A DNA stretch of 64,000 nt from an uncultured Erythrobacter sp. (GTDB taxonomy: Bacteria > Pseudomonadota > Alphaproteobacteria > Sphingomonadales > Sphingomonadaceae), in NCBI RefSeq assembly GCF_958304185.1, contig NZ_OY284435.1:1-64000 (forward strand), given 5' to 3'. Below the pieces are notes generated by a model. It saw only the letters and a list, made by a program, of their open reading frames with translations. It searched no databases and was not told where the DNA came from. This document shows, one piece after another, positions 25,846-42,130 of this stretch. Positions within the stretch are counted from its first letter, which is position 1; each line of letters begins with the position of its first letter. Both the position numbers and the translations under genes were made by a program.

Positions 25846-27054
25846 ATGGATCCGGCCACTACCGGCAAACAGCAGCGCGCCTGGAGTGGCCCGGCGGTTT
25901 TCAGCGTCGGATTTCGCCCGTTCTTTTTTCTCGGCGCACTCTGGGCGGTTGTGGCGATGACGCTGTGGGTGCCGATGCTGGCCGGGAGACTGGCGCTGCC
26001 GACCGCGTTCGATCTGGTCAGTTGGCATGCACATGAGTTCTTGTTCGGCTATCTTGCGGCGATCATTGCCGGGTTCCTGCTGACAGCTGTTCCCAGTTGG
26101 ACCGGACGGCCGCCACTCACGGGCTGGCCGCTGGCATCCTTGGTTGCGCTTTGGCTCGCTGGCCGGGTTGCCATCATGTTTTCACAAGGCTTGCCTCCCG
26201 TGGTTGTCGCTCTGGTCGATCTGGCGATGATGGTTGAGCTGGCGCTGCTATTGGCGCGCGAAATTGTGGTGGGAAGCAACTGGCGCAACCTTCCGGTCGT
26301 GGTTCTGCTGGTGGTGTTCGGGGCCGCCAATGGCCTGTTCCATTGGGAAGCGGCGCGCGGTGTCTATGCCGCGCAAGGGATGGGGCTGAGGCTTGGTCTG
26401 GCCGCTTCACTGATGATGATCGCGGTGATCGGTGGGCGGATTGTGCCAACCTTCACCCGCAATTGGCTGGTCAAACGCGGTGGGGGGCGCTTGCCCGCCC
26501 TGCCGATGCAACATTTCGACAAGGCTGCGCTGGCCGTTCTTATGGTCGCCTTGCTGGCGTGGACCGTGTGGCCCAATGCTGAGGGGACGGGGATTGCGTT
26601 GCTGCTCGCGGGGCTTGTCCACTTTGCACGGTTGGCGCGTTGGGCAGGCGACCGCACCTTTGCCGAACCGCTCGTGCTGGTGCTGCACGTCGGGTATGCA
26701 TTTGTGCCGCTGGGCGCTCTGGCAGGCGCGGCAGAGGTTCTAGGGCCGGGCTCGATCGGTGCAGGCACCTCGCAACATGTATGGATGGCTGGCGCCCTTG
26801 GGTTGATGACGCTGGCGGTCATGACGCGCGCAACGCTGGGGCACAGCGGGCATGATTTGACCGCCGGGCCGGGGACGACCGCGATCTACATAGCTGTCAT
26901 CGCCGCCGTGGCTGCGCGACTATCCGCGGGCGTGTGGTCGGATTCTTCCGCCTTGTTGCACAGCCTTTCAGGCGCTGGCTGGATTTTGGCGTTTGCGGGT
27001 TTCGCTACGCTTTACGGTCCGATGTTGCTGCGCCCGCGCCGAATGCCTGCCTAA
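25846..27054 (+). CDS. nnrS: NnrS family heme/copper membrane protein
   Basis: A 402-residue protein with about 12 membrane helices. The N-terminal FSVGFRPFFFLGALWA and SWHAHEFLFGYLAAIIAGFLLT are the hallmark NnrS motifs, and the His-rich Q-H-V-W-M-A and GLMTLAVMTRATLGHSGHDL fit the rest of the family. NnrS is induced by NO and protects against nitrosative stress in several bacteria. The operator at 25794 supports NO-responsive control here. Confidence 0.92.
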   Translation: MDPATTGKQQRAWSGPAVFSVGFRPFFFLGALWAVVAMTLWVPMLAGRLALPTAFDLVSWHAHEFLFGYLAAIIAGFLLTAVPSWTGRPPLTGWPLASLVALWLAGRVAIMFSQGLPPVVVALVDLAMMVELALLLAREIVVGSNWRNLPVVVLLVVFGAANGLFHWEAARGVYAAQGMGLRLGLAASLMMIAVIGGRIVPTFTRNWLVKRGGGRLPALPMQHFDKAALAVLMVALLAWTVWPNAEGTGIALLLAGLVHFARLARWAGDRTFAEPLVLVLHVGYAFVPLGALAGAAEVLGPGSIGAGTSQHVWMAGALGLMTLAVMTRATLGHSGHDLTAGPGTTAIYIAVIAAVAARLSAGVWSDSSALLHSLSGAGWILAFAGFATLYGPMLLRPRRMPA

Positions 27055-27129
27055 ACCGGCTGGCGCCCCCGGTCGTCATGCTGGCTGTATGGCTGCGGCG
27101 GCAGGCGCAAACGGGCCACCATTCCAGGG

Positions 27130-27465
27130 TTAATCGGCAATCGGCAGCATGATCGTCATCAGCAGAACAGCATCCGTATCGGCATTGATGCCATGCACAC
27201 TGCTTTCATCGAAGAAGACCCATTGGTTTGCATGCAAGGCCAGCCTCTGGTCAGCCAGGCTAACGGATACCGCACCTTCGAGGCAGTGGAGCGTGATTTC
27301 GGAGGCCACCTCGTGGGCGGGAATGCTTTCACCTTGTGCAAGAACAAGACGGATGGCTTCGAACCGGTCGGTCTTGACGATCGCTCTGGTGCCGGCCTGC
27401 GCTGACGCATTTGCGGGCAGGCCAAGATCGACCACTTCGCCGGGGCTGGCATGATGCAGGGCCAT
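27130..27465 (-). CDS. Cupin-fold small protein
   Basis: A 111-residue single-domain cupin. The two motifs are recognisable but relaxed: IPAHEVASEITLHCLEGAVSVSL (motif 1) and NQWVFFDESSVHGINADTDAVLL (motif 2, His in SSVHG). Such short cupins near Rrf2/NO genes may bind a metal or a reactive species. It lies 39 bases downstream of the Rrf2 regulator on the same strand, so the pair is probably co-transcribed. Confidence 0.75.
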   Translation of the reverse strand: MALHHASPGEVVDLGLPANASAQAGTRAIVKTDRFEAIRLVLAQGESIPAHEVASEITLHCLEGAVSVSLADQRLALHANQWVFFDESSVHGINADTDAVLLMTIMLPIAD

Positions 27466-27504
27466 TGGATGAGCTCCTCGATAGACTTGTAATCCTGATC
27501 GCTG

Positions 27505-27969
27505 TCAGGCGGGGTGGTTTAGCGGTTCGTCTTGTGTTGCTGGCTCCCGCAGCAAGCGATCGCGGAATCTTTGGGGATCAGGAATAAGCTCGCTGATGCG
27601 GCGTTGATCGAGCTTGGTAAGAAAATCCTCTATCGCCTCGCTAAGCAGAGGCTTCAGCCCGCACACGCCGTTGATCACGCAACCCGAACCAGCGGCGAAA
27701 CAAGATACAAAGGCATCGAGGTTTTCGAACCTGCGCACCACTTCGCCCACGGTAATGGTGTCAGCCGGGCGAGCGAGTCGCATCCCGCCACCCCGACCGC
27801 GGAAAGTTTCGACCAGCCCCTCAGCCTGTAGCCGTTGCACGACCTTAGCCAGGTGATTGCGCGAGATCTGAAACCGCCGGGCGATGTCATCGACCGAGAG
27901 GTGCCGGTCCGCGGCAGCCAAGGTCATGAGCACGCGCAGCGCATAATCGGTGTGAAGGCTTAGCTGCAT
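27505..27969 (-). CDS. nsrR: Rrf2-family regulator, NsrR-like
   Basis: A 154-residue Fe-S regulator. The N-terminal MQLSLHTDYALRVLMTLA is the classic Rrf2 start, with the wing GLVETFRGRGGGMRLARP. Three cysteines, Cys90, Cys97 and Cys103 (in SCFAAGSGCVINGVCGLKPL), fit the cluster-binding loop of NsrR, the NO sensor. I start at 27969 by family alignment; in-frame ATGs at 27981 and 27990 are possible. It is divergent from the globin gene across the 33-bp palindrome at 28009-28041, so it likely represses itself and the globin until NO damages its cluster. Confidence 0.85.
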   Translation of the reverse strand: MQLSLHTDYALRVLMTLAAADRHLSVDDIARRFQISRNHLAKVVQRLQAEGLVETFRGRGGGMRLARPADTITVGEVVRRFENLDAFVSCFAAGSGCVINGVCGLKPLLSEAIEDFLTKLDQRRISELIPDPQRFRDRLLREPATQDEPLNHPA

Positions 27970-28008
27970 TGAAATGCGCATATCACATATTGCTTTTTCC
28001 GGCAACGT

Positions 28009-28041
28009 CGCTTAATGCGTATATGATATACCCATTAAGCG
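28009..28041. promoter_or_regulatory. Divergent operator between nsrR-like gene and globin
   Basis: Outer arms CGCTTAATG (28009-28017) and CATTAAGCG (28033-28041) are perfect inverted repeats around GTATATGATATAC-type inner symmetry. The inner part, reverse-complemented, reads GGGTATATCATATACGC, matching the nnrS site at 25794. It lies 40 bases from the regulator start and 10 bases from the globin start. Confidence 0.65.
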
Positions 28042-28050
28042 AGTCCTTCG

Positions 28051-28551
28051 ATGATCAGCCCCGCTCCTGCTTCCCGCGAAGCCGAATTTGACGCACGCGC
28101 CTTTGCGCTGCGCAAGCGTGCGGAAAAGAAGGTGGCGGCTGAAGATATCGGCGTCGATGCGGACTTCATCGATCAGATGGTCGAGAGCTTTTACACCGCG
28201 ATCCAAGGGGACGATCTGCTCGCCCCGATTTTCGCTGAGCGCGTCCATGATTGGCCTGTGCATCTGGCACGGATGAAGGGGTTCTGGCGCTCGGTGCTCC
28301 ACAATAGCGGGGAGTTTTCGGGCAACCCGATGCTCAAGCATCTGGCCATCCCCGGTCTCGAGCTCGCTCACTTCGTCCGCTGGCTCGATCTGTTTTACGC
28401 CACCTTGCGCCGTCTGGAGAGCCACCCGCAAGCAATCGGGCTGGTCGCCGGACGGGCGCGGATGATCGCCGACAGTTTGCTCACTGCCATCGAAATGCGC
28501 CGTTCCGGCTTGGCCGGAGGGCGCGCAGGAAAGGATCTTCCCCATGTTTGA
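28051..28551 (+). CDS. Group III truncated hemoglobin
   Basis: A 166-residue globin. FIDQMVESFYTAIQGDDLLAPIF begins the conserved globin core, and HDWPVHLARMKGFWRSVLHN plus PMLKHLAI match group III (trHbP) sequences; the proximal His is in the HFVRWLDLF region. These globins are linked to NO and O2 chemistry. The first 30 residues are not part of the fold. Ribosome site is weak. The stop overlaps the ATG of the next gene, so they are coupled. Confidence 0.85.
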   Translation: MISPAPASREAEFDARAFALRKRAEKKVAAEDIGVDADFIDQMVESFYTAIQGDDLLAPIFAERVHDWPVHLARMKGFWRSVLHNSGEFSGNPMLKHLAIPGLELAHFVRWLDLFYATLRRLESHPQAIGLVAGRARMIADSLLTAIEMRRSGLAGGRAGKDLPHV

Positions 28552-29265: not shown

Positions 29266-29463
29266 ATGACAATCCAAGAGCCCATACCCAACCTGTGGAC
29301 AGAACGTCTCGAACTGCGCGGGCCCAAAAGTGATGATTTCCCGGTTTATCGTGATTTCTTCGCTGACGCTGAAGCATCGCGCTTTTACGGTGGCCCGATG
29401 GAAGCTGACCGCGCTTGGCGCGTGTTGGCAACGGACTTGGGTCACTGGGCACTGCGCGGTTAG
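29266..29463 (+). pseudogene. GNAT acetyltransferase, 5' fragment
   Basis: Sixty-five codons read MTIQEPIPNLWTERLELRGP, WRVLATDLGHWALRG: the N-terminus of a RimJ/GNAT-type acetyltransferase that acts on the alpha or side-chain amino group. It stops at 29461 just before the acetyl-CoA-binding motif. The DNA immediately continues into the C-terminal fragment of an unrelated ATP-grasp protein, so the break is a rearrangement, not a simple stop mutation. Confidence 0.75.
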
Positions 29464-29477
29464 CCGCCGCAAGGCGC

Positions 29478-29789
29478 TGCTCGGGCGCGCTGGGGCTCGG
29501 CTATGTCGGGGTCGATCTGGTGATCGATGCCACGCGCGGCGTGCAGGTCCTCGAATGCAATGCCTATCCGGGGCTCGAGATCCAGAACATCAACGGTGCC
29601 GGACTGGGCTCGCGGATCGCGTTGATCGAGCGCCTGCAACGCGAGCGCGAGCGCGCCGCGCGGCGGGCGGGAGCGGGGACTACGGTGCGGCCGGTCAATG
29701 ATTGGGGCGCCGCGCTGCGGGACGCCGCACGCAAGATCGCCGAGCGAGTGTCCGGCGCTTTCGCGCGGCCCGCTCCGGTCACAGCCTGA
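29478..29789 (+). pseudogene. ATP-grasp (alpha-L-glutamate ligase-like), 3' fragment
   Basis: About 104 codons encode LGLGYVGVDLVIDATRGVQV and LECNAYPGLEIQNINGAGL, the last ATP-grasp strand with metal-binding E-x-N in LECNAYPG, then a charged helical tail and a stop at 29787. The first two thirds of the gene are missing. Family members are RimK-like ligases joining amino acids. It abuts the GNAT fragment. Confidence 0.75.
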
Positions 29790-30037
29790 TCGCCGGGCCG
29801 TGAAATCTCCCGCGCGGATTTTCGACATCGCCGGGAATAGGCCGCGGCGCTGAAACGTTAACCCTATGCCAGCCGGAACGACCCGACCGGATGGCACCAT
29901 CTCTTCCCGTCGCGGGTCGGCGGCGGGTCTTCCCTCATGTCCAGGAGAAGACCGTGCATGTCACGCCGATCCCCCATGCCCAACGCCCACACCCCCTCCG
30001 CCCCGCCAGAGAGCCTGCCTCTCGCCGGTGGTCGGCC

Positions 30038-30364
30038 ATGAAGCGCGCCGATGTCGCGATTTTCGCCGCCATGGCGTTGTGGTGCGCGCTGTTCACGCTG
30101 ACGATCATGCAATACGAGCCGGGCGAGCAGCCTGCGGGCTGGCGCGAATGGCTGCTGGCAGCGGTACTGCACCTGCCGTTCCTCGCGATCCTCTCCTTCC
30201 TGATGTTCGGCCTGATCGAGCGCTTCGACTATTTCCGCATCATCAGCCGCCCGCCGCGCCCCGGCAATCTACCGCGCTGCACGCCCAAGGTCTGCGTGCA
30301 GCTGCCGATGTTCAATGAGGACGCCGTGGCCGAGCGCGTCATCGCGGCGGCCTGCGCACTCGAC
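30038..30364 (+). pseudogene. Glycosyltransferase (cellulose-synthase-like), 5' fragment
   Basis: About 109 codons from the ATG at 30038: two membrane segments (VAIFAAMALWCALFTLTI and LLAAVLHLPFLAILSFLMFG), then PKVCVQLPMFNEDAVAERVI, the first strand of a family-2 glycosyltransferase with its P-x-F-N-E motif. Similarity stops after AACALD near 30364, where the DNA switches to the reverse strand of another gene. The D-x-D and Q-x-x-R-W motifs are gone. In sphingomonads such transferases sit in exopolysaccharide loci. Confidence 0.75.
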
Positions 30365-31095
30365 TGCCTGCCCGTCGATCCGCAGCGTCGCCTCGAGGGC
30401 GTGATATTCTCCGGGGCTGAAATAGCCCGGCTGACCCACCAGACGGAAGCTGGTGCCGGTGTAGCGCGCCCCGACATGGATGCGCGGCGCGAGCGCGAGG
30501 CGCTGCTCGAACTCGGCCTGCCACCACCACTGGCGGTTGCCGTCGCTATAATCGGCGGTGGCGGCGCGGGCGGTGAGGCGGCTGCGCTCGGTCGGTTGGA
30601 GATCGGCCGAGGCTTTGATCTGGTTCGCGATTACCCGGTCGCGCAGGGTCGGCTCGCTGTCGAGCGTGAAGCGCTGGACGCCGAGGTCGATCCGCACGCG
30701 GTCCTTAGGGAAGTACGAGGCATAGGCGTCGTAGGTCAGGAAGGTCTGCGTGCCACCTGGCCCGGGCGCATCAATGCTGTCGACGCCGATGTTGGCGTTG
30801 AGATCGACCGCGTCCGACAGGCGCCACCCGCCGCTCGCGGCAATGCGCGTGACGGTGAACACGTCGCCGGATGCGTCCGAGGGATCGAAGGCGGCACGTT
30901 GCAGCCGCGGCCCGATCCGGCCACGCCCATCGGCGAAGCGATAATCCGCGCCGAGGTTGAATTGTTCGACGTCCAGCCCGTCGGACTGGTCGAAGCGGCG
31001 GGCATCCATGCGGACTTCGCTTCGGGTGTCACGCGCGAGCCGGCCGAGCAGCCAGCGCGCGCGATCAGGCCCGCGAACATGGTATGGCTTGCGCG
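30365..31095 (-). pseudogene. TPR/beta-barrel outer-membrane protein, internal fragment (inverted)
   Basis: Read on the reverse strand, about 240 codons encode alternating strands such as FNLGADYRFADGRGRIGP, SDAVDLNANIGVDSIDAPG, DLGVQRFTLDSEPTLRDRV and HVGARYTGTSFRLVG. These resemble the C-terminal barrel of BcsC/PgaA-like secretion porins. It has no proper start and ends at the junction with the glycosyltransferase fragment. It runs opposite to its neighbours, so an inversion has happened. Confidence 0.65.
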
Positions 31096-31097
31096 CC

Positions 31098-31286
31098 AGC
31101 GCCGGGGCGGAGCGCGATGTCGGCAGCGCCGAGCGCTTCATTCTCAGCACCAGCGCCTACCTGCGCCAGCAGCTTACCCCCGCCGTCGATATCGAGGCAG
31201 CCTACGACTACAGCTCATCCAGCGCGGCCTCATCGACCGGTTTTGAACGCGGCATCGCCCGGATTAGTCTGATCGCACGGTTCTGA
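31098..31286 (+). pseudogene. Outer-membrane beta-barrel protein, 3' fragment
   Basis: About 62 codons in the + frame end with AYLRQQLTPAVDIEAAYDYS and RGIARISLIARF. A terminal Phe after alternating hydrophobic residues is the C-terminal signature of an outer-membrane barrel. No start or upstream domain is present. It lies head-on with the inverted fragment, as the last piece of this scrambled stretch. Confidence 0.6.
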
Positions 31287-31714
31287 GACTGGCACGCAGA
31301 AGCAGCGTACCAGATCCCGGTCAGCTTCCGCAGTGAGCGAGAACGGCTCGCGATCTCAAAAAACGGAATGTCGGCTCCTGGCGCGACCAGACATTCAGTT
31401 CGACGGCCGGGAATGACCGGCTTTGGTCGGGAGCCGTCACGGCTCAGATCGGGCCGCGAATGGCGGCTTTGCCCCGTTTTTAAAAAGTTCCTGCCGTTCG
31501 GCTTCCGACCCCGAAACGGACATTCGACCGGTAGGATGTAGCTCACAAGAACTGTGATTGGTATAGCTTCGATTTCCCGCTCCTCGGCATGCTAGCCGCT
31601 TCGGTCTGACGAGGGCGATTGAGATCGGATGGCTTCAATCCCTAAGACAATGTCGGTCGCGCGCAGCAGCGCTTGCTTCCCCGCTCGGGTGTCGGAACCT
31701 TGTTCGCGCGATGG
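31287..31714. other. Intergenic region with repeat elements
   Basis: About 430 bases with no gene. The core gcgaatggcggctttgc at 31456-31472 repeats the element at 24665-24681. Near 31500 is a separate GC-rich stretch with cgaaacggacattcg. These look like fixed intergenic repeats, not coding DNA. Confidence 0.5.
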
Positions 31715-32752
31715 TCAGGCCGTCTGAGCCTGCGGCGCTCGCGCGTCGATGGCGGCGCCGACCAGCGCTGCGATCATGAAGGCCGCATCGGCCCCCTCGG
31801 CCAGCGCCTGCGCCAGCCCGGCCCAGTTGCCACACGGCGCGGCACAATGCGCGCGCAATTGCCCGCACTGGCCTGCCAGCTGGGCAAAGCCCTTGCCCAT
31901 CCGCGGCGCCGTTTGCAGAAGCGCATCGCCAATTGGCAGCAGGACGGCTCCTGTCTGATGGCGCATGTCTTCAATCGCGGCTCGGCGGGCCATCGGCGCG
32001 CGGTGGGCGAGGCGGTGATTGCCGAATGGGGTCGAAAGCAAAGTGGTCTTGAGTTCCGCAGGCGCAATGGCGGCCAGGGCGCTCAGCCAGGTATCGCGCT
32101 CGTCTTGGGACACGAGGTGATCGGATTGCCGGGTCATCGTCACCCGATGCCCGTCAATCGCCATCAGGGCCGTGCTGCCGCTAGCCAAGGTCTCGCAGAG
32201 CGTCACCTGCGGGTGCGCGATTGCGGCGGTTCCCTGCCAGCTGCTGTAGACGCTATGGCCCCCTGTTTCGAGCAGATCGAGCCGCGGCTCGCGCGCCTTG
32301 AGGATCAAGCGACTGCCGCCGGTTGCATCGATGCACAGATCGGCGCTTGTTCGGTTCGCATCGGCCAGCCAGTCGAGCGCTTTGTCGGCAAGAGCCTTAG
32401 CGGTTCCGCAGGCAAGAACGGTGATCGGAGCGTGGCCGGGGCCCGCCAGCAGCCCGCGCAACTGAGCCGTCAGCCGCTTTGCGTCCAGCACTGGGCGATC
32501 CACCGCGCGCACAAGCTGGTGCCCGGTCACTTGCCATGCCGGATGATCGCCACAGCCGGTCAGCGGCGTGCCGACCAGCAGGCCAATGGCGCGCAGCGTG
32601 TCTGCGGTGATCGTGTGCACGTGATTGTGCTGAGGCGATGCTGCGCCGGTGAGCAAGGTCACCGGCACGCCCGCTCTTGCGAGCACCAATGAAGCGATCA
32701 ATCCGGCCGGGCCGTCTCCTGCGACCAGTGCCGTGCTGCGACCCTGTGGCAC
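31715..32752 (-). CDS. FAD-dependent monooxygenase-like protein, coupled to repeat protein
   Basis: A 345-residue flavoprotein of the UbiH/PHBH group, shorter than usual (about 380-420). The N-terminal TALVAGDGPAGLIASLVLAR has a Gly-x-Gly-x-x-Gly variant (G-D-G-P-A-G), and PIGDALLQTAPRMGKGFAQL near residue 270 is the second FAD motif (G-D-x-x-x-x-x-P-x-x-G-x-G). The start is GTG at 32752, two bases after the stop of the FPGDMF-repeat gene, so translation is coupled. It has no signal peptide. It may modify the repeat protein before export, or a small molecule; nothing proves either. Confidence 0.65.
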   Translation of the reverse strand: MPQGRSTALVAGDGPAGLIASLVLARAGVPVTLLTGAASPQHNHVHTITADTLRAIGLLVGTPLTGCGDHPAWQVTGHQLVRAVDRPVLDAKRLTAQLRGLLAGPGHAPITVLACGTAKALADKALDWLADANRTSADLCIDATGGSRLILKAREPRLDLLETGGHSVYSSWQGTAAIAHPQVTLCETLASGSTALMAIDGHRVTMTRQSDHLVSQDERDTWLSALAAIAPAELKTTLLSTPFGNHRLAHRAPMARRAAIEDMRHQTGAVLLPIGDALLQTAPRMGKGFAQLAGQCGQLRAHCAAPCGNWAGLAQALAEGADAAFMIAALVGAAIDARAPQAQTA

Positions 32753-32754
32753 GA

Positions 32755-33327
32755 TTAGCCTGCCGGGCGTGTGGGCACGCCGAGCCCTGCACTGGTGGTG
32801 GCAGCATCGGCGACCAACACAAAGAACACGAGGCCGTTGGGCGCGCCGCCTTCACCCAGGGTGGATTTCGCGATGTCCATCATCAGCGCACGCGTGGCGC
32901 GGTCGCGCTGGCTGGCGGGCATTTTGACACCAGGTTTGAACATGTCGCCAGGAAAGAACATGTCACCGGGGAAGAACATATCTCCGGGGAAGAACATGTC
33001 GCCCGGAAAGAACATATCGCCCGGAAAGGCGACATCGCCTGCACCCAGCTTGAACCCGGGCGAGGCGAACAGATCGGTCACCGCGCCATCATCGATCCGG
33101 GCGGCGAGGAACTGCGCCTCGACCGTTATACCCAGTTCCGACCTGAACCGCATAGCCCGCATCAGGGCTGCGCGCAGCTTGCGTCCTGTCATGCCCTTGA
33201 ACGCCTCGGGATTGTCGATCTCGATTGTGATCGACCCGGCTTGGGCGGCAAAGCTGATGCTGCTCGTCGCAAGGCCAGCGGCCAAAAATGCGGTACCGAC
33301 GATAAGTCTGCGCCTGCTGATGGTCAT
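32755..33327 (-). CDS. Tat-type exported protein with five FPGDMF repeats
   Basis: A 190-residue protein. The start at 33327 has GGAAGG 7 bases upstream. The N-terminus MTISRRRLIVGTAFLAAGLA carries a twin-arginine motif and a hydrophobic stretch, suggesting Tat export. A globular part follows (about 30-100), then five back-to-back copies of FPGDMF, a KPGV end and a hydrophobic, Ala/Gly-rich tail. Differences between the DNA repeats are all silent, so the peptide is held by selection. The next gene is a coupled flavoprotein. No family recognised; function unknown. Confidence 0.75.
   Translation of the reverse strand: MTISRRRLIVGTAFLAAGLATSSISFAAQAGSITIEIDNPEAFKGMTGRKLRAALMRAMRFRSELGITVEAQFLAARIDDGAVTDLFASPGFKLGAGDVAFPGDMFFPGDMFFPGDMFFPGDMFFPGDMFKPGVKMPASQRDRATRALMMDIAKSTLGEGGAPNGLVFFVLVADAATTSAGLGVPTRPAG
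32938..33027 (-). repeat. Five 18-bp tandem repeats coding FPGDMF
   Basis: Units begin at 32938, 32956, 32974, 32992 and 33010, each 18 bases with gaacat...gaa as frame. Third positions vary at Phe, Pro, Gly and Asp codons, but every unit still encodes FPGDMF. That pattern argues for age and selection at the protein level, not for recent slippage. Confidence 0.9.
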
Positions 33328-33525
33328 GATCATTCCTTCCAGTGAGGATAGCACCCGGAGCCGCGCTGCAATTTCGCGCTCCCCGGCAAGCAAAACACGC
33401 TCCGACCGCGAAAGCGGACATGGCGGGCTTGAGGAACCGGCGGACTTTGCATTTGATTATGCCCGCGCTCGGCCATACCCATCGCCTGGCGTTCGGTAGG
33501 TTCAAAAGGGAAGGAAGGCGCGGGC

Positions 33526-34068
33526 ATGGCTGACGGCGACGATACCGCAGACGATGTCCGCGTTCTCGTCGAGGCGCTCTATCCGCAGTTGCGTATGATC
33601 GCAGGCGCGCTGTCTTCGCGGTTCGGTAGCCCGGAAACCCTTCGGTCGACGGCGCTCATTTCCGAAGTCTTCCTGAAACTCCGCCGCTCGCCGCGCTTCG
33701 CCGATGAACAGCATTTCCTGCGCACGGCGGCGCGCGCGATGCGGCAGGTGCTGGTCAATCATGCGCGCGGCCGCGTCGCCCAGCGGCGTGGTGGCGGTGC
33801 AGTGGTACTGCCGCTTGACGATGACGTGCCGGTGTTCTGGCAGAGCGATGCCGAATTGATCGCGCTCGATGATGCATTGGGTAAGTTGGAGAGCATAGAT
33901 GCGCGGCTGGCGGCGGTGGTCGAATGCCGGTTTTTCGGCGGCTATGACGATCAGGAAACGGGGCGCTTGCTCGGCATGACGGATCGCACTGTGCGGCGCG
34001 ACTGGGTCAAGGCGCGTGCATTGCTGCGCAACTTGCTCGCGGATGGCGACCTGCCGGGATCCGATTAA
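33526..34068 (+). CDS. ECF-type RNA polymerase sigma factor
   Basis: A 180-residue sigma factor of the ECF-like subfamily associated with Ser/Thr kinases (TIGR02999 type). Region 2 runs from about 10 to 80 (LVEALYPQLRMIAGAL then FLRTAARAMRQVLVNHARGR) and region 4 from 115 to 170, with LLGMTDRTVRRDWVKARALL as the helix-turn-helix. No anti-sigma gene is adjacent; the kinase gene converges from the other side, 22 bases away. In this subfamily the kinase is thought to control the sigma factor by phosphorylation; that is inference here. Confidence 0.9.
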   Translation: MADGDDTADDVRVLVEALYPQLRMIAGALSSRFGSPETLRSTALISEVFLKLRRSPRFADEQHFLRTAARAMRQVLVNHARGRVAQRRGGGAVVLPLDDDVPVFWQSDAELIALDDALGKLESIDARLAAVVECRFFGGYDDQETGRLLGMTDRTVRRDWVKARALLRNLLADGDLPGSD

Positions 34069-34089: not shown

Positions 34090-36531
34090 TCAAAGACCGT
34101 AGCGCTTGCGAATATCGCGGATAGCGTCACTGAGCCGCGCTCCTGCCGGCCCCATCGCCGCCACGCCTTTTTCCGCACTCGCCAATTGATCACGCGCGGC
34201 ACCCTTGTTGCCGTTAGCAGCATTCGCTCGGGCGAGCGCGATCAGCGCCACGATTTCGGGCGGCGAGCCCGCACCCGAAGTTTGGAGCGCGGCGAGATAC
34301 CCTAACTGCGCTGTCAGCAAGGCGTCCCCTTGCTGCCCGGTTCCCAGCATGGCCTCACTTAGCCCTGCGGCAGATGCGGCATGGAGCATCGATCCCTCGC
34401 CAGCGAATTCGCGCGCCATCGCCGTTGCCTCGCGCGCAAGCGGCAAGGCCTGGGCGGCATCCCCTGTCAGCAGCAAGGCCTTGGCGTGGTTATTGATCAG
34501 CGCCGCCAACGCGGCCGAGGGGCCGAACAGCGCACGCCGCAGCCGCACGGCTTCCGCAAATTGCGGCACCGCTGCCTTCGGACGACCAGCCAGAACCTCG
34601 CTCGCCGCCAGATTGTTGAGCGTGTTCATCGCATCGGGCGTTTCGCCCGCCCCGATTGCGGCCCAAGTGGCCTGAGCCTGCCGGAAGGATGCTGCGGCTT
34701 CGTCATGCTGCCCCATGGTCGACAGGACGTTGCCGAGATTGTTCTGAAAGATCGCCACATCGCGGTTGGCGGGGCCTGACATGGCGATACGTTCCGCCAG
34801 CGCGCGGCGCAGGATCGCTGCGGCGCGGGGCGGGTCCTTGTCGAGATCGCGCACAACCTGCGCCTCGGTCAGACGGCTCTCGATCATGTCGCTCTGCCAG
34901 CGGGCCGGATCGCTGGCCCAGAATGCCTGAGCGGCGGCGAGCATCGCGCGGGCCTGTTCGGGCTCACCAGTACGCAGATAGACCTGCGCGAGATCGACCT
35001 TGGCCTCGGCAATCACTTCAGGTGGCACCTTGCCGGACTGCGCGGCCGGGCTGCCTAGCGGTAGGGAAGCGACCGGCTTTAACAGGCCGATGGCACCGGG
35101 ATAGTCGTTGGAATGAAAGTACAGCTCGCCAAGCGCCTTGAGAACCGGGGCAAAATGCGCCGGATCGCGGGCAAATTCGCGCGTCAGGCGTTCGGATGCG
35201 CGGTCGAGCACGTCCTTGCGCGATCCGTCAGGCCCCGCCGCCTCGGTCGATTCGCCCAGCACCAGAAACAGCGATTGGCGCACCGCCTCGGTCCGGTCAG
35301 CCTCGACCACCGCAGCATCGCGGGCGGCTCTCGCATCACGAGCCTGCCAGAGCGCAGCGCCGAGCCCGCCTGTCAGGCTGAGCGCAATCGCAGCAGCGCC
35401 CGCCACCGGCCATTTGAAGCGCGTGAGCCAGCGGCGAAAGCGGTAGCTCGGCTCGTGCTTGCGCGCTTCGACTGCGTGGCCTGCCAGCGCCCGGCGCAGG
35501 TCGCCGGCAAAGGCATCCATGGTTGGATAGCGCGCCGCCGGATCTCTGCTCAGCGCACATGCCAGCACTGCGCTAACATCGTCCAACAAAGCAGATGGCG
35601 CGCGCCGCGCAACGTCGGGCAGCAGGGCGGGCCGGTTGGTCGCTGCCGGAGTATCGCCATCCACTGCCAGCGCGATGCCGGCAGGCAGGCCGCCGCGCCG
35701 GACGGCGGGATGCCCGGTAAGCAATTCGTGCAGCACTTGCGTCAAGCCATAAACATCGGTCGCCGGGCCGACCGACAGGCCTTCGACCAATTCCGGCGCA
35801 GCATAGGCCAGCGACAGGCGCTCCGGCGCGGCGGCATCATGGCTGCCAAGCCGCCGGGCGATCCCGAAATCGATGAGGCGTGGCTGGCCCATCGGATCGA
35901 CCAGAATGTTCGATGGCTTGAGGTCGCGGTGCAGCACCAGCCGCGCATGGGCCTGCGCCAACCCATCAGCAGCGGCGAGCACCAGCCGCACTCGTTCTGC
36001 CAGACCGAGCCGATGGTCGGCGCACCAGCGATCGATGGTCGGACCGTCGATCCGCTCCATCACCATCCAGCTTGACCCGTCGGGCAGGGTGCCACCATCC
36101 AGGATGCGCGCAATCGAGGGGTGATCAAGGTCGGCGAGGACCTGACGTTCCTGCGTCATCACCATCAAGTCTGTGCCGGGTAGAGCATCGTTGAGCTTGA
36201 GCGCCCCGGCCTGCGTGAAGCCGCCCTCGACCCGGTCGACGGCATAGACTCGGCCCATGCCTCCTTCGCCGATCAGGCCCCGTATCGCCCAGACACCGAT
36301 GCGTTCGCCTTCATTCAGGGGCGGTGGGCGGTTCGCCTGATCCACTCCCATCGCTCCTGTGCGCATGAAACCGGTAAGGCCGGAATGCAGACTGTCGATG
36401 AAATGAAAGGCGGCAGCCTGAAAATCGGGATCGCCATCGGTTTGCGCCGCTACAAACCCGCGCTGCTCGGTCAGTGGCAGCTCCATGGCTTCATCGATCA
36501 ACGCCGATAGCCGGGGCCAATTCTGGTTCAT
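34090..36531 (-). CDS. Membrane Ser/Thr protein kinase with C-terminal helical repeats
   Basis: An 813-residue kinase. Glycine loop LIGEGGMGRV (about 86-95), Lys112 (in AGALKL), HRDLKPSN (201-208, catalytic Asp203) and DFG (221-223) are all present, so it should be active. A single membrane helix (about 378-398, VAGAAAIALSLTGGLGAAL) separates the cytoplasmic kinase from a TPR-like, Ala-rich repeat region of about 400 residues outside. I start at ATG 36531; a TTG at 36546 is possible. It converges on the sigma gene. Likely a sensor that acts on the sigma factor. Confidence 0.9.
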   Translation of the reverse strand: MNQNWPRLSALIDEAMELPLTEQRGFVAAQTDGDPDFQAAAFHFIDSLHSGLTGFMRTGAMGVDQANRPPPLNEGERIGVWAIRGLIGEGGMGRVYAVDRVEGGFTQAGALKLNDALPGTDLMVMTQERQVLADLDHPSIARILDGGTLPDGSSWMVMERIDGPTIDRWCADHRLGLAERVRLVLAAADGLAQAHARLVLHRDLKPSNILVDPMGQPRLIDFGIARRLGSHDAAAPERLSLAYAAPELVEGLSVGPATDVYGLTQVLHELLTGHPAVRRGGLPAGIALAVDGDTPAATNRPALLPDVARRAPSALLDDVSAVLACALSRDPAARYPTMDAFAGDLRRALAGHAVEARKHEPSYRFRRWLTRFKWPVAGAAAIALSLTGGLGAALWQARDARAARDAAVVEADRTEAVRQSLFLVLGESTEAAGPDGSRKDVLDRASERLTREFARDPAHFAPVLKALGELYFHSNDYPGAIGLLKPVASLPLGSPAAQSGKVPPEVIAEAKVDLAQVYLRTGEPEQARAMLAAAQAFWASDPARWQSDMIESRLTEAQVVRDLDKDPPRAAAILRRALAERIAMSGPANRDVAIFQNNLGNVLSTMGQHDEAAASFRQAQATWAAIGAGETPDAMNTLNNLAASEVLAGRPKAAVPQFAEAVRLRRALFGPSAALAALINNHAKALLLTGDAAQALPLAREATAMAREFAGEGSMLHAASAAGLSEAMLGTGQQGDALLTAQLGYLAALQTSGAGSPPEIVALIALARANAANGNKGAARDQLASAEKGVAAMGPAGARLSDAIRDIRKRYGL

Positions 36532-36807
36532 CAGCAATATGCCCAATCACTTGGAAAGGCGAAAATACACCTTTCCCCCGGCAACTTGGTAAGCGGCCAT
36601 GAGGCTGTAACGCAACTTTTTTTGCGCCGCATGTCCGCTTTGGGGGAGCTTTGCTGTTCTGCCAGTGGGAGGGCCCGCAACCGGACTATTTTCAGGGGGG
36701 AAGCAAATGTCCGATCCACGCGACCGCGATCGCCTGTCCGCAAATTTCTCCAATCCGTGTTCTGCATTCTGACAGCGCCGCGCGCTGATTTCAGGAAGGA
36801 AAAATTG

Positions 36808-37812
36808 ATGCCGATCTCCACCGATGCCATGTTTGTCGCTCTGGCAGTCAGCGCCTTGATGATCCCCGTTAGCGGCCACGCGCAGCAGCGTACGGTTGCT
36901 CCGGCCGCCGCGCCGGCGGCAGCGACTTGCGTCGACGGGCGCGGGCCGACGTCTGGGTTTTTCTGCGCGCCGTTGGTCAACAACGAATCCGTGCGTGCTT
37001 GCACCACCAACGCCAAGGGGGCCGCCCTGACCCAGTGCCAGCAAGCGGCCGCAGCCAGCTTCTGCCGCACCCGTTCCTACAGCGCGGCGGCGGCCTATCA
37101 GGTCACCCCCAGCGGGAACTTGTCCGAAGTGCTGTGCCGCGCGCCGGTCGCTGCGGTTGTTGCTGGGCAGGGCGATGCGCCTTCTGGTAGCGCGGCGACC
37201 GCAGCCGCGCCCGCCGCGCCCGCACAGATGAACAGCGTTTACGCCACCCAAGTCGAGTCGGGCGCGACTCCAGCTCTTACTTTGTCCCCCTTTGGCCCGC
37301 AGATGACCGGCACATATCGTGTCACGCAGGATGATGCCTTCTTTGACAGCATCTATCAGTCAGGCGGCGGCACGATCACTGAAGGACGCCTAGAGGGCAC
37401 CTTCGACGGCACATTTTTCGTCGGCTATTGGTATGAAAAAGAAGGCCGAACTTATGTTCAGCGTGTGTGTGATCCTGCACGTGGCGGCGAACTCGTATTT
37501 GGACGGTTTAAGCTTAGCTTCTCCGCGGATCGCAAGAGCTTTACCGGCGTGCACGGCACCTGCGATGCTGACCCTGAGGACGGTTACTTCGCCGGTTGGA
37601 ACGGCACATTGACCGGTCAGGTGCCGGCCTCCGCCCCCACGCAAGCGGCAGCGGGTTCCACCAGTGACAAGAAGAGCAAAAAGCGGCCGTCCACAAGCGA
37701 GACGGTGGCCGATCGGCTCGCACGGGAAGCCGCAGAAGAGGCCGAGCGCGCTGCGGCCGACAAGGTGCGCGAAGGCGTGCGCGATGTGATCGGCGGCAAG
37801 CTGCCCTTCTGA
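36808..37812 (+). CDS. Secreted hypothetical protein, first gene of a four-gene operon
   Basis: A 334-residue protein starting MPISTDAMFVALAVSALMIP with a signal peptide (Ala-x-Ala-type GHA/Q site). The start has CAGGAAGGA upstream. An N-terminal Cys-rich part (about 40-115, six Cys) is followed by an Ala/Pro linker, a lipocalin-like beta stretch (TYRVTQDDAFFDSIYQSGGG, TFFVGYWYEKEGRTY) and a charged C-terminal helix. The middle resembles avidin/lipocalin-like domains but no family is certain. Three exported proteins follow closely. Confidence 0.7.
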   Translation: MPISTDAMFVALAVSALMIPVSGHAQQRTVAPAAAPAAATCVDGRGPTSGFFCAPLVNNESVRACTTNAKGAALTQCQQAAAASFCRTRSYSAAAAYQVTPSGNLSEVLCRAPVAAVVAGQGDAPSGSAATAAAPAAPAQMNSVYATQVESGATPALTLSPFGPQMTGTYRVTQDDAFFDSIYQSGGGTITEGRLEGTFDGTFFVGYWYEKEGRTYVQRVCDPARGGELVFGRFKLSFSADRKSFTGVHGTCDADPEDGYFAGWNGTLTGQVPASAPTQAAAGSTSDKKSKKRPSTSETVADRLAREAAEEAERAAADKVREGVRDVIGGKLPF

Positions 37813-37857: not shown

Positions 37858-38346
37858 ATGACCAATCGCAATATTGCACAGCGTCTTGCGGCTTTGGCCG
37901 GGGCCACGCTCCTGCTGGCCGCATGCGGCGGCGAGAATGCCGGGAGTGATGCCGCAAGCAGTGCCGAGGCTGAAGTCGGTGCCTCGGCCGTCAAGGCGGT
38001 CATCGGCGGTGTGACCGGGGTTGGCGTATCCGTTTCCGATCTCCCCGACTTTGCCGAAGTGCCTTCGGGCTCCAATGCGATCCACAACATGGCCGTCAAC
38101 CAAGACGGCAAGACGGGGGGCTCGGTCACATTCGAGACATCCCAGTCACCCGCTGATCTGATCGCTTTCTACCGCGCTTCAATGGCCCGCAATGGCTTAA
38201 AAATCGGCATGGAAACGCAGTCCCCCCAGATGGTCCAGATGATGGGCGAAAGCGAAGATAAATCCAAATCGCTGATGGTGATGATCGTCGTTGACGATGC
38301 GGGCAAGGCATCGCTCAACCTCGTGCACTCGCGAACCACAGGCTGA
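37858..38346 (+). CDS. Lipoprotein, hypothetical
   Basis: A 162-residue lipoprotein. The signal peptide ends in LLLAACGG, a clear lipobox. The mature part has a Ser/Ala-rich tether, then a beta-alpha domain including GGSVTFETSQSPADLIAFYR and MVMIVVDDAGKASLNLV. The segment S-P-A-D-L-I-A-F-Y-R-x-x-M resembles a domain shared with its downstream neighbour (about 30-50 residues). No function known. It lies 45 bases after the previous gene. Confidence 0.7.
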   Translation: MTNRNIAQRLAALAGATLLLAACGGENAGSDAASSAEAEVGASAVKAVIGGVTGVGVSVSDLPDFAEVPSGSNAIHNMAVNQDGKTGGSVTFETSQSPADLIAFYRASMARNGLKIGMETQSPQMVQMMGESEDKSKSLMVMIVVDDAGKASLNLVHSRTTG

Positions 38347-38362
38347 TCGGGAGGAGCATGAC

Positions 38363-38842
38363 ATGATGCGCATTGCCATAAGCGGAGCGCTGGCTCTGAT
38401 CCTCGCCGGCTGCGGCAGCGAAACCGGGAATGACAGCGGTAACCCAGGCGCTGCCGAGGCTGCGGCCGCGGGCGTCGCCGCCGTCTTGAAAAGTGAAGCG
38501 GCCGGGCGTCCCTTTCCCGATGACATGCCAGCCTTCGTCGAGCCGATGCCGGGCGGCAATTACATGACCGGGATGCGCGGCAACAATGCGCTGCGGTCCA
38601 CCGGCATGGATATGTACGACGCGCCGGGCAGCGCGGCAGACGCGGTCGCGTTTCATACCGATGCGCTGACGAAAGCCGGGTTTGCCCCGCAAGTCGCCGC
38701 TGCAAAAAAGGTCCGCAACACCATGGAAACGTTGATTGCCGGAAAGCATGCTGATGGCCGGACGTTGGACATCGTCGTGATCGAGAAATCGCCGACCGAT
38801 GCGGTCGTGCAGATGAGCTATACCATTCCGGCGGCGCAGTAG
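38363..38842 (+). CDS. Lipoprotein, hypothetical, relative of upstream gene
   Basis: A 159-residue lipoprotein starting MMRIAISGALALILAGCGSE, with lipobox LILAGC. GGGAGGAGC precedes the ATG at 38363. The mature part has a low-complexity tether and then GSAADAVAFHTDALTKAGFA and RTLDIVVIEKSPTDAVVQM, patterned like the upstream lipoprotein, so the two are probably paralogues. They are separated by 16 bases, and the third gene's ATG follows its stop directly. Confidence 0.7.
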   Translation: MMRIAISGALALILAGCGSETGNDSGNPGAAEAAAAGVAAVLKSEAAGRPFPDDMPAFVEPMPGGNYMTGMRGNNALRSTGMDMYDAPGSAADAVAFHTDALTKAGFAPQVAAAKKVRNTMETLIAGKHADGRTLDIVVIEKSPTDAVVQMSYTIPAAQ

Positions 38843-41683: not shown

Positions 41684-42130
41684 CTAGGCTCCCTTCTGGA
41701 CCGCAATACAGGCGCTGATATTGGGCAATTCGCGCTCCAGAGCATCGCGGGTGACCAGGTTTCTGGTGGAATTCACCACCAGCGCGTCGACATCGGCCTC
41801 GCTCATATCGGGCGCCTTCAGACGGCCGACGCGGTCGTCCCAATAGACGGTCATCGCGGTATCGATTTCTGCCAGCGCGGCAGGCAGCTCACCGGCAAGG
41901 AGCACTTTTTTCGCAGCGGCGGCGGCGGCGATCAGCCCGCGGCACTTCCATGCCTCCTCCACCTCGGCGCGCGTGGCAGCGATGGTCTCACCAACGCCGT
42001 CGCCAAGGCTTGCAGCGCTGCTGTTGCCCGCTGGCTGAGCACCTTGCGCCGCGCCAACGGTCTCCGCTTGGTCGGCTTCCCCGCAAGCCGTAACGCAGAC
42101 CAGCAGGATTAACATCATCAAAGACCGCAT
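41684..42130 (-). CDS. Lipoprotein, hypothetical
   Basis: A 148-residue lipoprotein starting MRSLMMLILLVCVTACGEAD at 42130, with lipobox VTAC. A longer frame to 42226 adds 32 residues before the signal and is not used. The mature protein is helical, with EVEEAWKCRGLIAAAAAAKK, and has one Cys pair (WKCRG, ISACIA). About 150 bases upstream of the metallopeptidase gene on the same strand; possibly co-transcribed with it. Confidence 0.7.
   Translation of the reverse strand: MRSLMMLILLVCVTACGEADQAETVGAAQGAQPAGNSSAASLGDGVGETIAATRAEVEEAWKCRGLIAAAAAAKKVLLAGELPAALAEIDTAMTVYWDDRVGRLKAPDMSEADVDALVVNSTRNLVTRDALERELPNISACIAVQKGA

Follow-up and report, generated by a model that had tools for sequence, protein, structure and literature searches.

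What is the role of a flavoprotein whose gene directly follows that of an exported hexapeptide-repeat protein? The question is raised by a locus in the window, i.e., the 64,000-nucleotide stretch of contig NZ_OY284435.1 of an uncultured Erythrobacter sp. that was analyzed here. An earlier note, made from the letters alone, had proposed that the repeat may be modified by the flavoprotein before export. The features of the locus are listed in Table 1, together with two haloarchaeal proteins that carry similar units.

Table 1. Coordinates of the features discussed (window positions unless a stretch is named)
Feature	Position	Strand	Remarks
Flavin monooxygenase-fold protein, 345 aa	31715..32752	-	GTG start; GxGxxG at residue 12
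Repeat protein gene	32755..33327	-	ATG start; 190 aa; predicted exported
Five tandem FPGDMF units, aa 101-130	32938..33027	-	Identical peptide in all five
Twin-arginine (Tat-type) signal region, MTISRRRLIVGTAFLAAGLATSSISFAA	33244..33327	-	RR invariant in 9/9 homologues
Upstream element, core ATGTCCGCTTTCG	33408..33422	-	Core common to the window and L009-L012
TIGR02999 (Sig-70_X6) ECF sigma factor	33526..34068	+	Divergent from the repeat gene; 160.3 bits, cut-off 126.15
Ser/Thr kinase	34090..36531	-	One predicted membrane segment (hydropathy peak around aa 376); C-terminal TPR region
Two haloarchaeal FPGDTW/FPGDTL/FPGDAL-type proteins	L004:3329-5476; L071:6177-9584 (Natrinema plasmid NZ_CP084880.1)		Nine in a row in one

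Repeat protein

The gene product was correctly described in the earlier note as a 190-residue protein with a twin-arginine start and five tandem FPGDMF units whose DNA copies differ only at silent positions. The DNA array (32938-33028) has a period of 18 bp and 5.1 copies, and its ten unit pairs show 27 synonymous and no non-synonymous codon differences. Summed across the units of the nine family members described below, the differences are 248 synonymous and 30 non-synonymous. Because these differences are mostly silent, the FPGDMF units seem to be ancient and maintained by selection on the peptide.

The N-terminus, MTISRRRLIVG, fits the twin-arginine motif, the motif test is positive in all nine family members, and a hydrophobic stretch follows (by eye), so that the protein is a predicted Tat substrate. 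The Pfam TAT_signal model scores weakly on the family (two of nine members, best E 0.035). The window protein matches no model in Pfam or NCBIfam, and the nine-member family gives weak Pfam matches only. Its own genome contains a single copy; a second match (E 0.07) is the antisense frame of the same repeat. The predicted structure has a pLDDT of 54, with the repeat region in blocks of pLDDT 26-41, and a fold search with this model returned nothing better than E 0.035. A text search of the literature for FPGDMF and FPGDM found no paper on such a repeat, and a search on methionine sulfoxide formation by flavin monooxygenases in RiPPs gave nothing related, as judged by title.

Family distribution and gene pairing

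The repeat protein is present in five of 114 genomes of the genus and in three of 396 genomes of the order, those three all within the genus. In a class sample of 385 genomes, a whole-length match was obtained only in the window itself; four other genomes of this sample (best E 2e-7 to 4e-5) were dropped because the alignment lay only around the repeat columns, and the corresponding stretches (L022-L025) contain no ORF of at least 60 aa with three PG[DN] units. A peptide-pattern scan of a genome contig collection yielded 101 stretches, 12 of which encode a relative by tblastn, namely seven true family members (L010-L016) and five dissimilar proteins that share the repeat (L017-L021). The seven originate from two Porphyrobacter records, Sphingopyxis terrae, Erythrobacter cryptus, a Caulobacterales MAG, a Pseudomonadota MAG and Psychromarinibacter. 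Stretches L007/L011, L008/L010 and L003/L006/L013, with equal identities, are apparently the same loci from two collections and were counted once. The nine distinct members are the window, L009 and L010-L016.

A viral origin was rejected: no relative was found in IMG/VR, the three-unit DNA pattern was unmatched, and matches to two phage records were partial and weak. Eight matches on E. faecalis plasmids look like chance; the one inspected lies on the strand opposite an annotated CDS.

The flavoprotein gene is located directly downstream of the repeat gene in all nine members. The distance of 2 bases given in the earlier note was confirmed for the window, between the stop codon TAA and the start codon GTG. 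The stop-to-start spacing in seven members is 2, 2, 2, 3, 5 or 11 bases or a 14-base overlap, and in L009 it is 2 bases; the flavoprotein start codon of L015 is uncertain, and the spacing is therefore clear in eight members. The other eight repeat proteins are 41-96% identical to that of the window and the flavoproteins 22-88%, so the flavoprotein changes faster.

Within the genus, the repeat gene and the flavoprotein gene are present or absent together. A flavoprotein profile detected the same five of 114 genomes as carriers of both, and the other 109 gave no match at E 1e-10; as the carriers' own flavoproteins are largely inside the profile, these 109 genomes are the informative part. The best non-member flavoprotein in the 385 class genomes scored 46.2 bits, compared with 358-472 bits for members. 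Nine genomes and one plasmid were searched whole for the flavoprotein. Four family carriers gave 358-406 bits, and no relative above 42.3 bits was found in the genomes of L017-L021 and the Natrinema plasmid. In three further Maricaulales-type genomes, 15.5-16 kb around the repeat gene contained no flavoprotein relative. The conserved pairing expected in the earlier note was thus observed, and the homologues without flavoprotein that it took to speak against its proposal were not found among the true homologues. The variable repeat number that it also expected did not appear, the number of units per member being nearly constant at five or six.

Flavoprotein

The flavoproteins contain motifs of PHBH-fold FAD monooxygenases: GxGxxG and GD..P..GxG in all nine, and in seven of nine DA[ST]G..R, which we take to occupy the place of the DG motif of these enzymes. 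The FAD motif begins at residue 7-13, too close to the N-terminus for a signal peptide to precede it. The window flavoprotein matches Pfam FAD_binding_3 just above the cut-off. Assignment to the flavin-dependent tryptophan halogenases was rejected, as WxWxIP, presumably the motif of these enzymes, is absent in all nine.

The predicted structure (pLDDT 79, pTM 0.84) ends in two helices. Foldseek placed MonCI and Lsd18 at the top and QhpG tenth for this model, with E values down to 9.8e-17. At E 0.01 the flavoprotein profile matches 139 PDB sequences; the peptidyl tryptophan dihydroxylase QhpG, one among many, is the best of them (E 1.3e-10), with LasC/Lsd18 a close second (7e-10). MICAL is matched at E 1e-6 to 4e-6, weakly, locally and in the FAD-domain part only. 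The NCBIfam model most shared by the nine flavoproteins is that of QhpG (six of nine); the GoxB maturase model and two general FAD-oxidoreductase models match four of nine each, the GoxB model (NF038174) at E 0.001 with a best value of 5.7e-8. Every NCBIfam score of the window flavoprotein is far under the curated cut-off: the QhpG model (NF049967) gives 23.1 bits against a cut-off of 240, and the GoxB model, whose cut-off was not reached, is absent from the 17 matches at E 1. The description of the flavoprotein as UbiH/PHBH-like in the earlier note therefore holds at the level of the fold; its closer relatives by sequence are QhpG, LasC/Lsd18 and GoxB. Judged by its sequence and structural model, the flavoprotein is placed on a separate branch of PHBH-fold flavin monooxygenases, outside every named family tested. 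Its relatives fit protein substrates and small-molecule substrates alike.

The flavoprotein could accordingly oxidize a small molecule, with the exported repeat protein binding, carrying or displaying the product. Such a role would agree with the first places of MonCI and Lsd18 in Foldseek and with the rank of LasC/Lsd18 by sequence; to our knowledge, these epoxidases have small-molecule substrates and no protein partner. However, on inspection of the ORF lists by eye, no biosynthetic gene cluster was noticed next to the pair, and the pair stays while its neighbors differ between orders. We regard this main rival to an action on the repeat protein as unlikely.

Among enzymes that modify proteins, QhpG (PDB 7CTQ) shares the PHBH-type FAD fold. 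According to PMC7876137, it is encoded in one operon with its small partner QhpC, which is modified in the cytoplasm before export; the window flavoprotein is also encoded beside a small exported-type partner. It differs in having 345 aa instead of 432, it may be without the C-terminal winged-helix domain of QhpG, and its FPGDMF partners are without Trp and Tyr, and without Cys except for one FPCDMF unit. No radical-SAM gene was noticed in the neighborhood of the pair. GoxB and LodB are described in the same paper (PMC7876137) as flavoproteins required to mature a protein. Their substrates are CTQ oxidases with a Trp-derived quinone, whereas a 190-aa Trp-free repeat protein is found here. MICAL, a PHBH-like flavoenzyme, is reported in PMC3645671 to oxygenate Met44 of actin. 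It differs in being an animal multidomain enzyme.

Candidate target residues

The 48 units of the nine members have F in all 48 at position 1, P in 48 at position 2, G in 47 at position 3 (one C), D in 44 at position 4 (four N), M in 48 at position 5 and F in 39 at position 6 (nine L). The nine proteins (1681 residues in total) contain no Trp, no Tyr, one Cys, three His, 156 Phe and 90 Met. For comparison, Trp, Tyr and Cys together make up 4.5% of six other window proteins, and about 8.5 such residues would be expected in 190. As Trp is absent from all nine partners, Trp chemistry of the QhpG/LodB/GoxB kind is excluded, and a Trp-quinone cofactor partner similar to QhpC or LodA was rejected for the same reason.

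Met is the most reactive invariant residue of the FPGDMF unit and a likelier flavoenzyme target than Phe; flavin hydroperoxides react poorly with unactivated benzene rings and with Pro. Modification of the partner at another site, i.e., hydroxylation of the first Phe, or a reaction at Pro or at a residue outside the repeat, is in our estimate quite unlikely: the first Phe and the Pro are as invariant as Met, and invariant residues also occur outside the repeat, but Trp and Tyr, the aromatics that such enzymes attack, are absent.

The Tat motif is present in all nine paired family proteins and in none of the eight unpaired bacterial FPxDxF proteins (the protein of L067 has RR, but in another setting), all eight of which contain both Trp and Tyr. 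Fisher's test on this contrast gives P 4e-5, an overstated value since the nine represent one family. Two haloarchaeal proteins were left out of the Tat count; one of them (Natrinema) starts with MIRRRQVLAAM and is possibly a Tat lipoprotein. Tat suits a protein that is modified, and perhaps folded, in the cytoplasm, and the pattern therefore fits modification before export.

FPxDxF units in other proteins

Hexamers of the FPxDxF type (FPGDHF, FPTDTF, FPGDTW) occur in dissimilar exported proteins of Maricaulales, Bacteroidota, Lujinxingia, a clostridial MAG and a haloarchaeal plasmid. The Lujinxingia protein (821 aa) contains two blocks of five FPGDMF units and a beta-helix domain, the clostridial MAG protein FPTDTF and three FPGDMF units, and the Algoriphagus protein two FPGDMF units. 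The array of a Bacteroidetes MAG protein reads IPGDMW YPGDLF FPGDMF FPGDMF FPGEML, and the hexamers of the Natrinema plasmid protein are FPGDTW, FPGDTL and FPGDAL. A Maricaulales-type family, traced from a Glycocaulis match, is present in four of 80 genomes searched, Glycocaulis included. Two of these genomes have five FPGDHF units, including one FPGSHF in one of them; the other two have FPTDTF and FPSDTF units, including one FPGDMF in one of them. No Pfam model of an FPxDxF repeat matched in the carriers examined.

After the repeats had been cut out, comparison of the window family by hhalign with the Maricaulales family, L017, L019 and L020 gave probabilities below 2%, as did comparison of the Maricaulales family with the latter three (reversed control, 0.9%; L018 and L004 were outside this comparison). 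By tblastn, the Sphingopyxis protein aligns on L067 over 77 aa with 44% identity, the repeat included; because the alignment runs past the repeat, a remote kinship of the window and Maricaulales families is possible. Both families have, by eye, the repeat followed by a helix-like stretch and then a hydrophobic strand.

No member of the flavoprotein family was found in FPxDxF carriers outside the repeat-protein family (five whole genomes, one plasmid and three 16-kb stretches), and the 16 kb of L067 and of L068 contain no flavoprotein relative. The FPxDxF array might thus be a structural or assembly element itself, with the flavoprotein aiding folding or tuning assembly and its chemistry secondary. 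The recurrence of the tandem array in dissimilar exported proteins, without the enzyme family where searched and with M, H, T or others at position 5, argues for such a role, which leaves unexplained why a constant enzyme accompanies the Tat-type, Trp/Tyr-free family alone. We consider it decidedly unlikely.

Regulatory neighbors

A TIGR02999 ECF sigma factor and a TPR Ser/Thr kinase are encoded near the pair in six of nine members (window, L009-L013); neither was found in the stretches L014-L016. The same sigma factor and kinase are found near the FPGDHF gene in both Maricaulales-type FPGDHF loci and beside the repeat gene on a 3.8-kb Bacteroidetes MAG contig. The Lujinxingia repeat gene is preceded by a Ser/Thr kinase gene, and its stretch contains no relative of the TIGR02999 sigma factor. 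Sigma factor and kinase were not found in two FPTDTF-type loci (15.5 kb each) or in L019 (6.7 kb). An ECF sigma factor of another kind is encoded about 3.6 kb from the Algoriphagus repeat gene, with no such kinase in the stretch.

At the FPGDHF loci (L067:7752-8492 and L068:7618-8238, five FPGDHF-type units each), an exported DUF4412-like protein (Pfam for L067) is encoded between the repeat gene and the sigma/kinase genes. In Lujinxingia vulgaris (L018:1008-6358), the gene of the repeat protein immediately follows that of a 901-aa Ser/Thr kinase, and the C-terminal part of this kinase matches EgtB/PvdO-type models.

With up to 8 candidates per genome scored, TIGR02999 was found in at least one of the 385 class genomes, the window's own. 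Among 60 chosen genus genomes it is present in five of five carriers and in ten of 55 others. None of the 12 TIGR02999 loci from these ten non-carrier genomes has an FPxDxF tandem or a flavoprotein relative, and the sigma/kinase pair therefore does not predict the repeat. It is associated with the repeat, neither needed nor sufficient. That the two genes of the repeat locus merely share a transcription unit and a regulator, without acting on each other, would agree with the presence of sigma factor and kinase near six of nine pairs, but L014, L015 and L016 retain the pair although neither was found in the stretches read, and we hold this explanation to be very improbable.

PMC13147305 describes PknS of Xanthomonas citri as a membrane Ser/Thr kinase that phosphorylates and activates its cognate ECF sigma factor EcfK. 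There, the two proteins control a type VI secretion system, whereas the adjoining genes here are the repeat pair. By adjacency and by this precedent, the ECF sigma factor and the membrane kinase may activate expression of the pair in carriers of the genera Erythrobacter and Sphingopyxis. Near-matches of the upstream element within the window are at chance level.

Other genes in the window

The gene at 41693-41989 (minus strand) encodes a relative of two lipoproteins whose genes immediately precede the E. cryptus repeat gene (L013, 4951-5948; 52% over 96 aa and 39% over 105 aa). An exported protein is encoded at 36586-37812 (plus strand), with a relative beside the Sphingopyxis kinase (L012, 2832-3212; 44.5% over 128 aa). 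Both products may belong to the same regulon. At 37858-38842, two small neighboring lipoproteins are encoded, one of which resembles by eye the sigma-side lipoprotein of E. cryptus (L013, 8050-8538); tblastn at E 0.01 gave no support for this likeness. Overlapping fragments at 29300-31300 comprise the C-terminal part of a sugar-transfer ATP-grasp protein (PF14397) and, on the opposite strand to it, a PgaA-barrel-like stretch, and look like decayed exopolysaccharide genes. The region 25846-28551 encodes NnrS, a cupin and an Rrf2 regulator (Pfam), as well as a 166-aa ORF without Pfam match that resembles a truncated globin; it reads like a nitric-oxide-type response group.

Proposed function and significance

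The reading favored here, with a probability of about 0.4, is that the flavoprotein oxygenates the FPGDMF units, likeliest at Met, before Tat export of the repeat protein. Translational coupling would probably yield the flavoprotein together with the repeat protein, and in the cytoplasm the enzyme would act on the FPGDMF loop of its partner. Its flavin hydroperoxide would oxygenate one residue per unit, most likely the Met sulfur, yielding a Met sulfoxide in each of the five or six units, and the oxygenated protein would then leave via Tat. Action on the partner, Met as the site and export by Tat after modification are inferred.

Modification before export, as suggested in the earlier note, is consistent with the pairing in all nine members and in the same five of 114 genus genomes, with nearest sequence relatives that include the peptide-modifying QhpG and GoxB, with the Tat-type start, and with the invariant Met and first Phe of the unit. 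Against it, Foldseek favors the small-molecule epoxidases MonCI and Lsd18 over QhpG, and the repeat, FPGDMF versions included, occurs in other phyla in genomes without this enzyme family, so that the array is not in every case dependent on the enzyme. As the nine paired proteins are one family, the correlations with Tat and with the lack of Trp and Tyr rest on few independent events. The earlier note overstated the modification, and it understated the wider motif and the link to kinase and ECF sigma factor, neighbors that it left unmentioned. Outside the cytoplasm, the modified repeat might, as a guess, have a surface or self-assembly role.

A new type of maturation, in which a dedicated bacterial flavin enzyme oxygenates every FPGDMF unit of a Tat cargo, combined with the kinship of the FPxDxF module and a tie to signaling, appears rather doubtful. 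If true, five or six in-register Met sulfoxides would make an exported, chemically patterned repeat, and the pair would represent that branch of a rare, taxonomically scattered FPxDxF module (Met, His or Thr at position 5) in which the repeat is modified, a module repeatedly linked with signaling by Ser/Thr kinases and ECF sigma factors. If the enzyme acts on the repeat, the two genes would form a compact system that oxidizes a protein at several sites in register before its export, readily moved to a laboratory host and testable by mass, and it would extend protein-modifying flavoenzymes of the QhpG/GoxB type beyond tryptophylquinone cofactors. The FPxDxF arrays in dissimilar exported proteins, often near a kinase or an ECF sigma factor, provide an entry point to the outputs of those signaling pairs.
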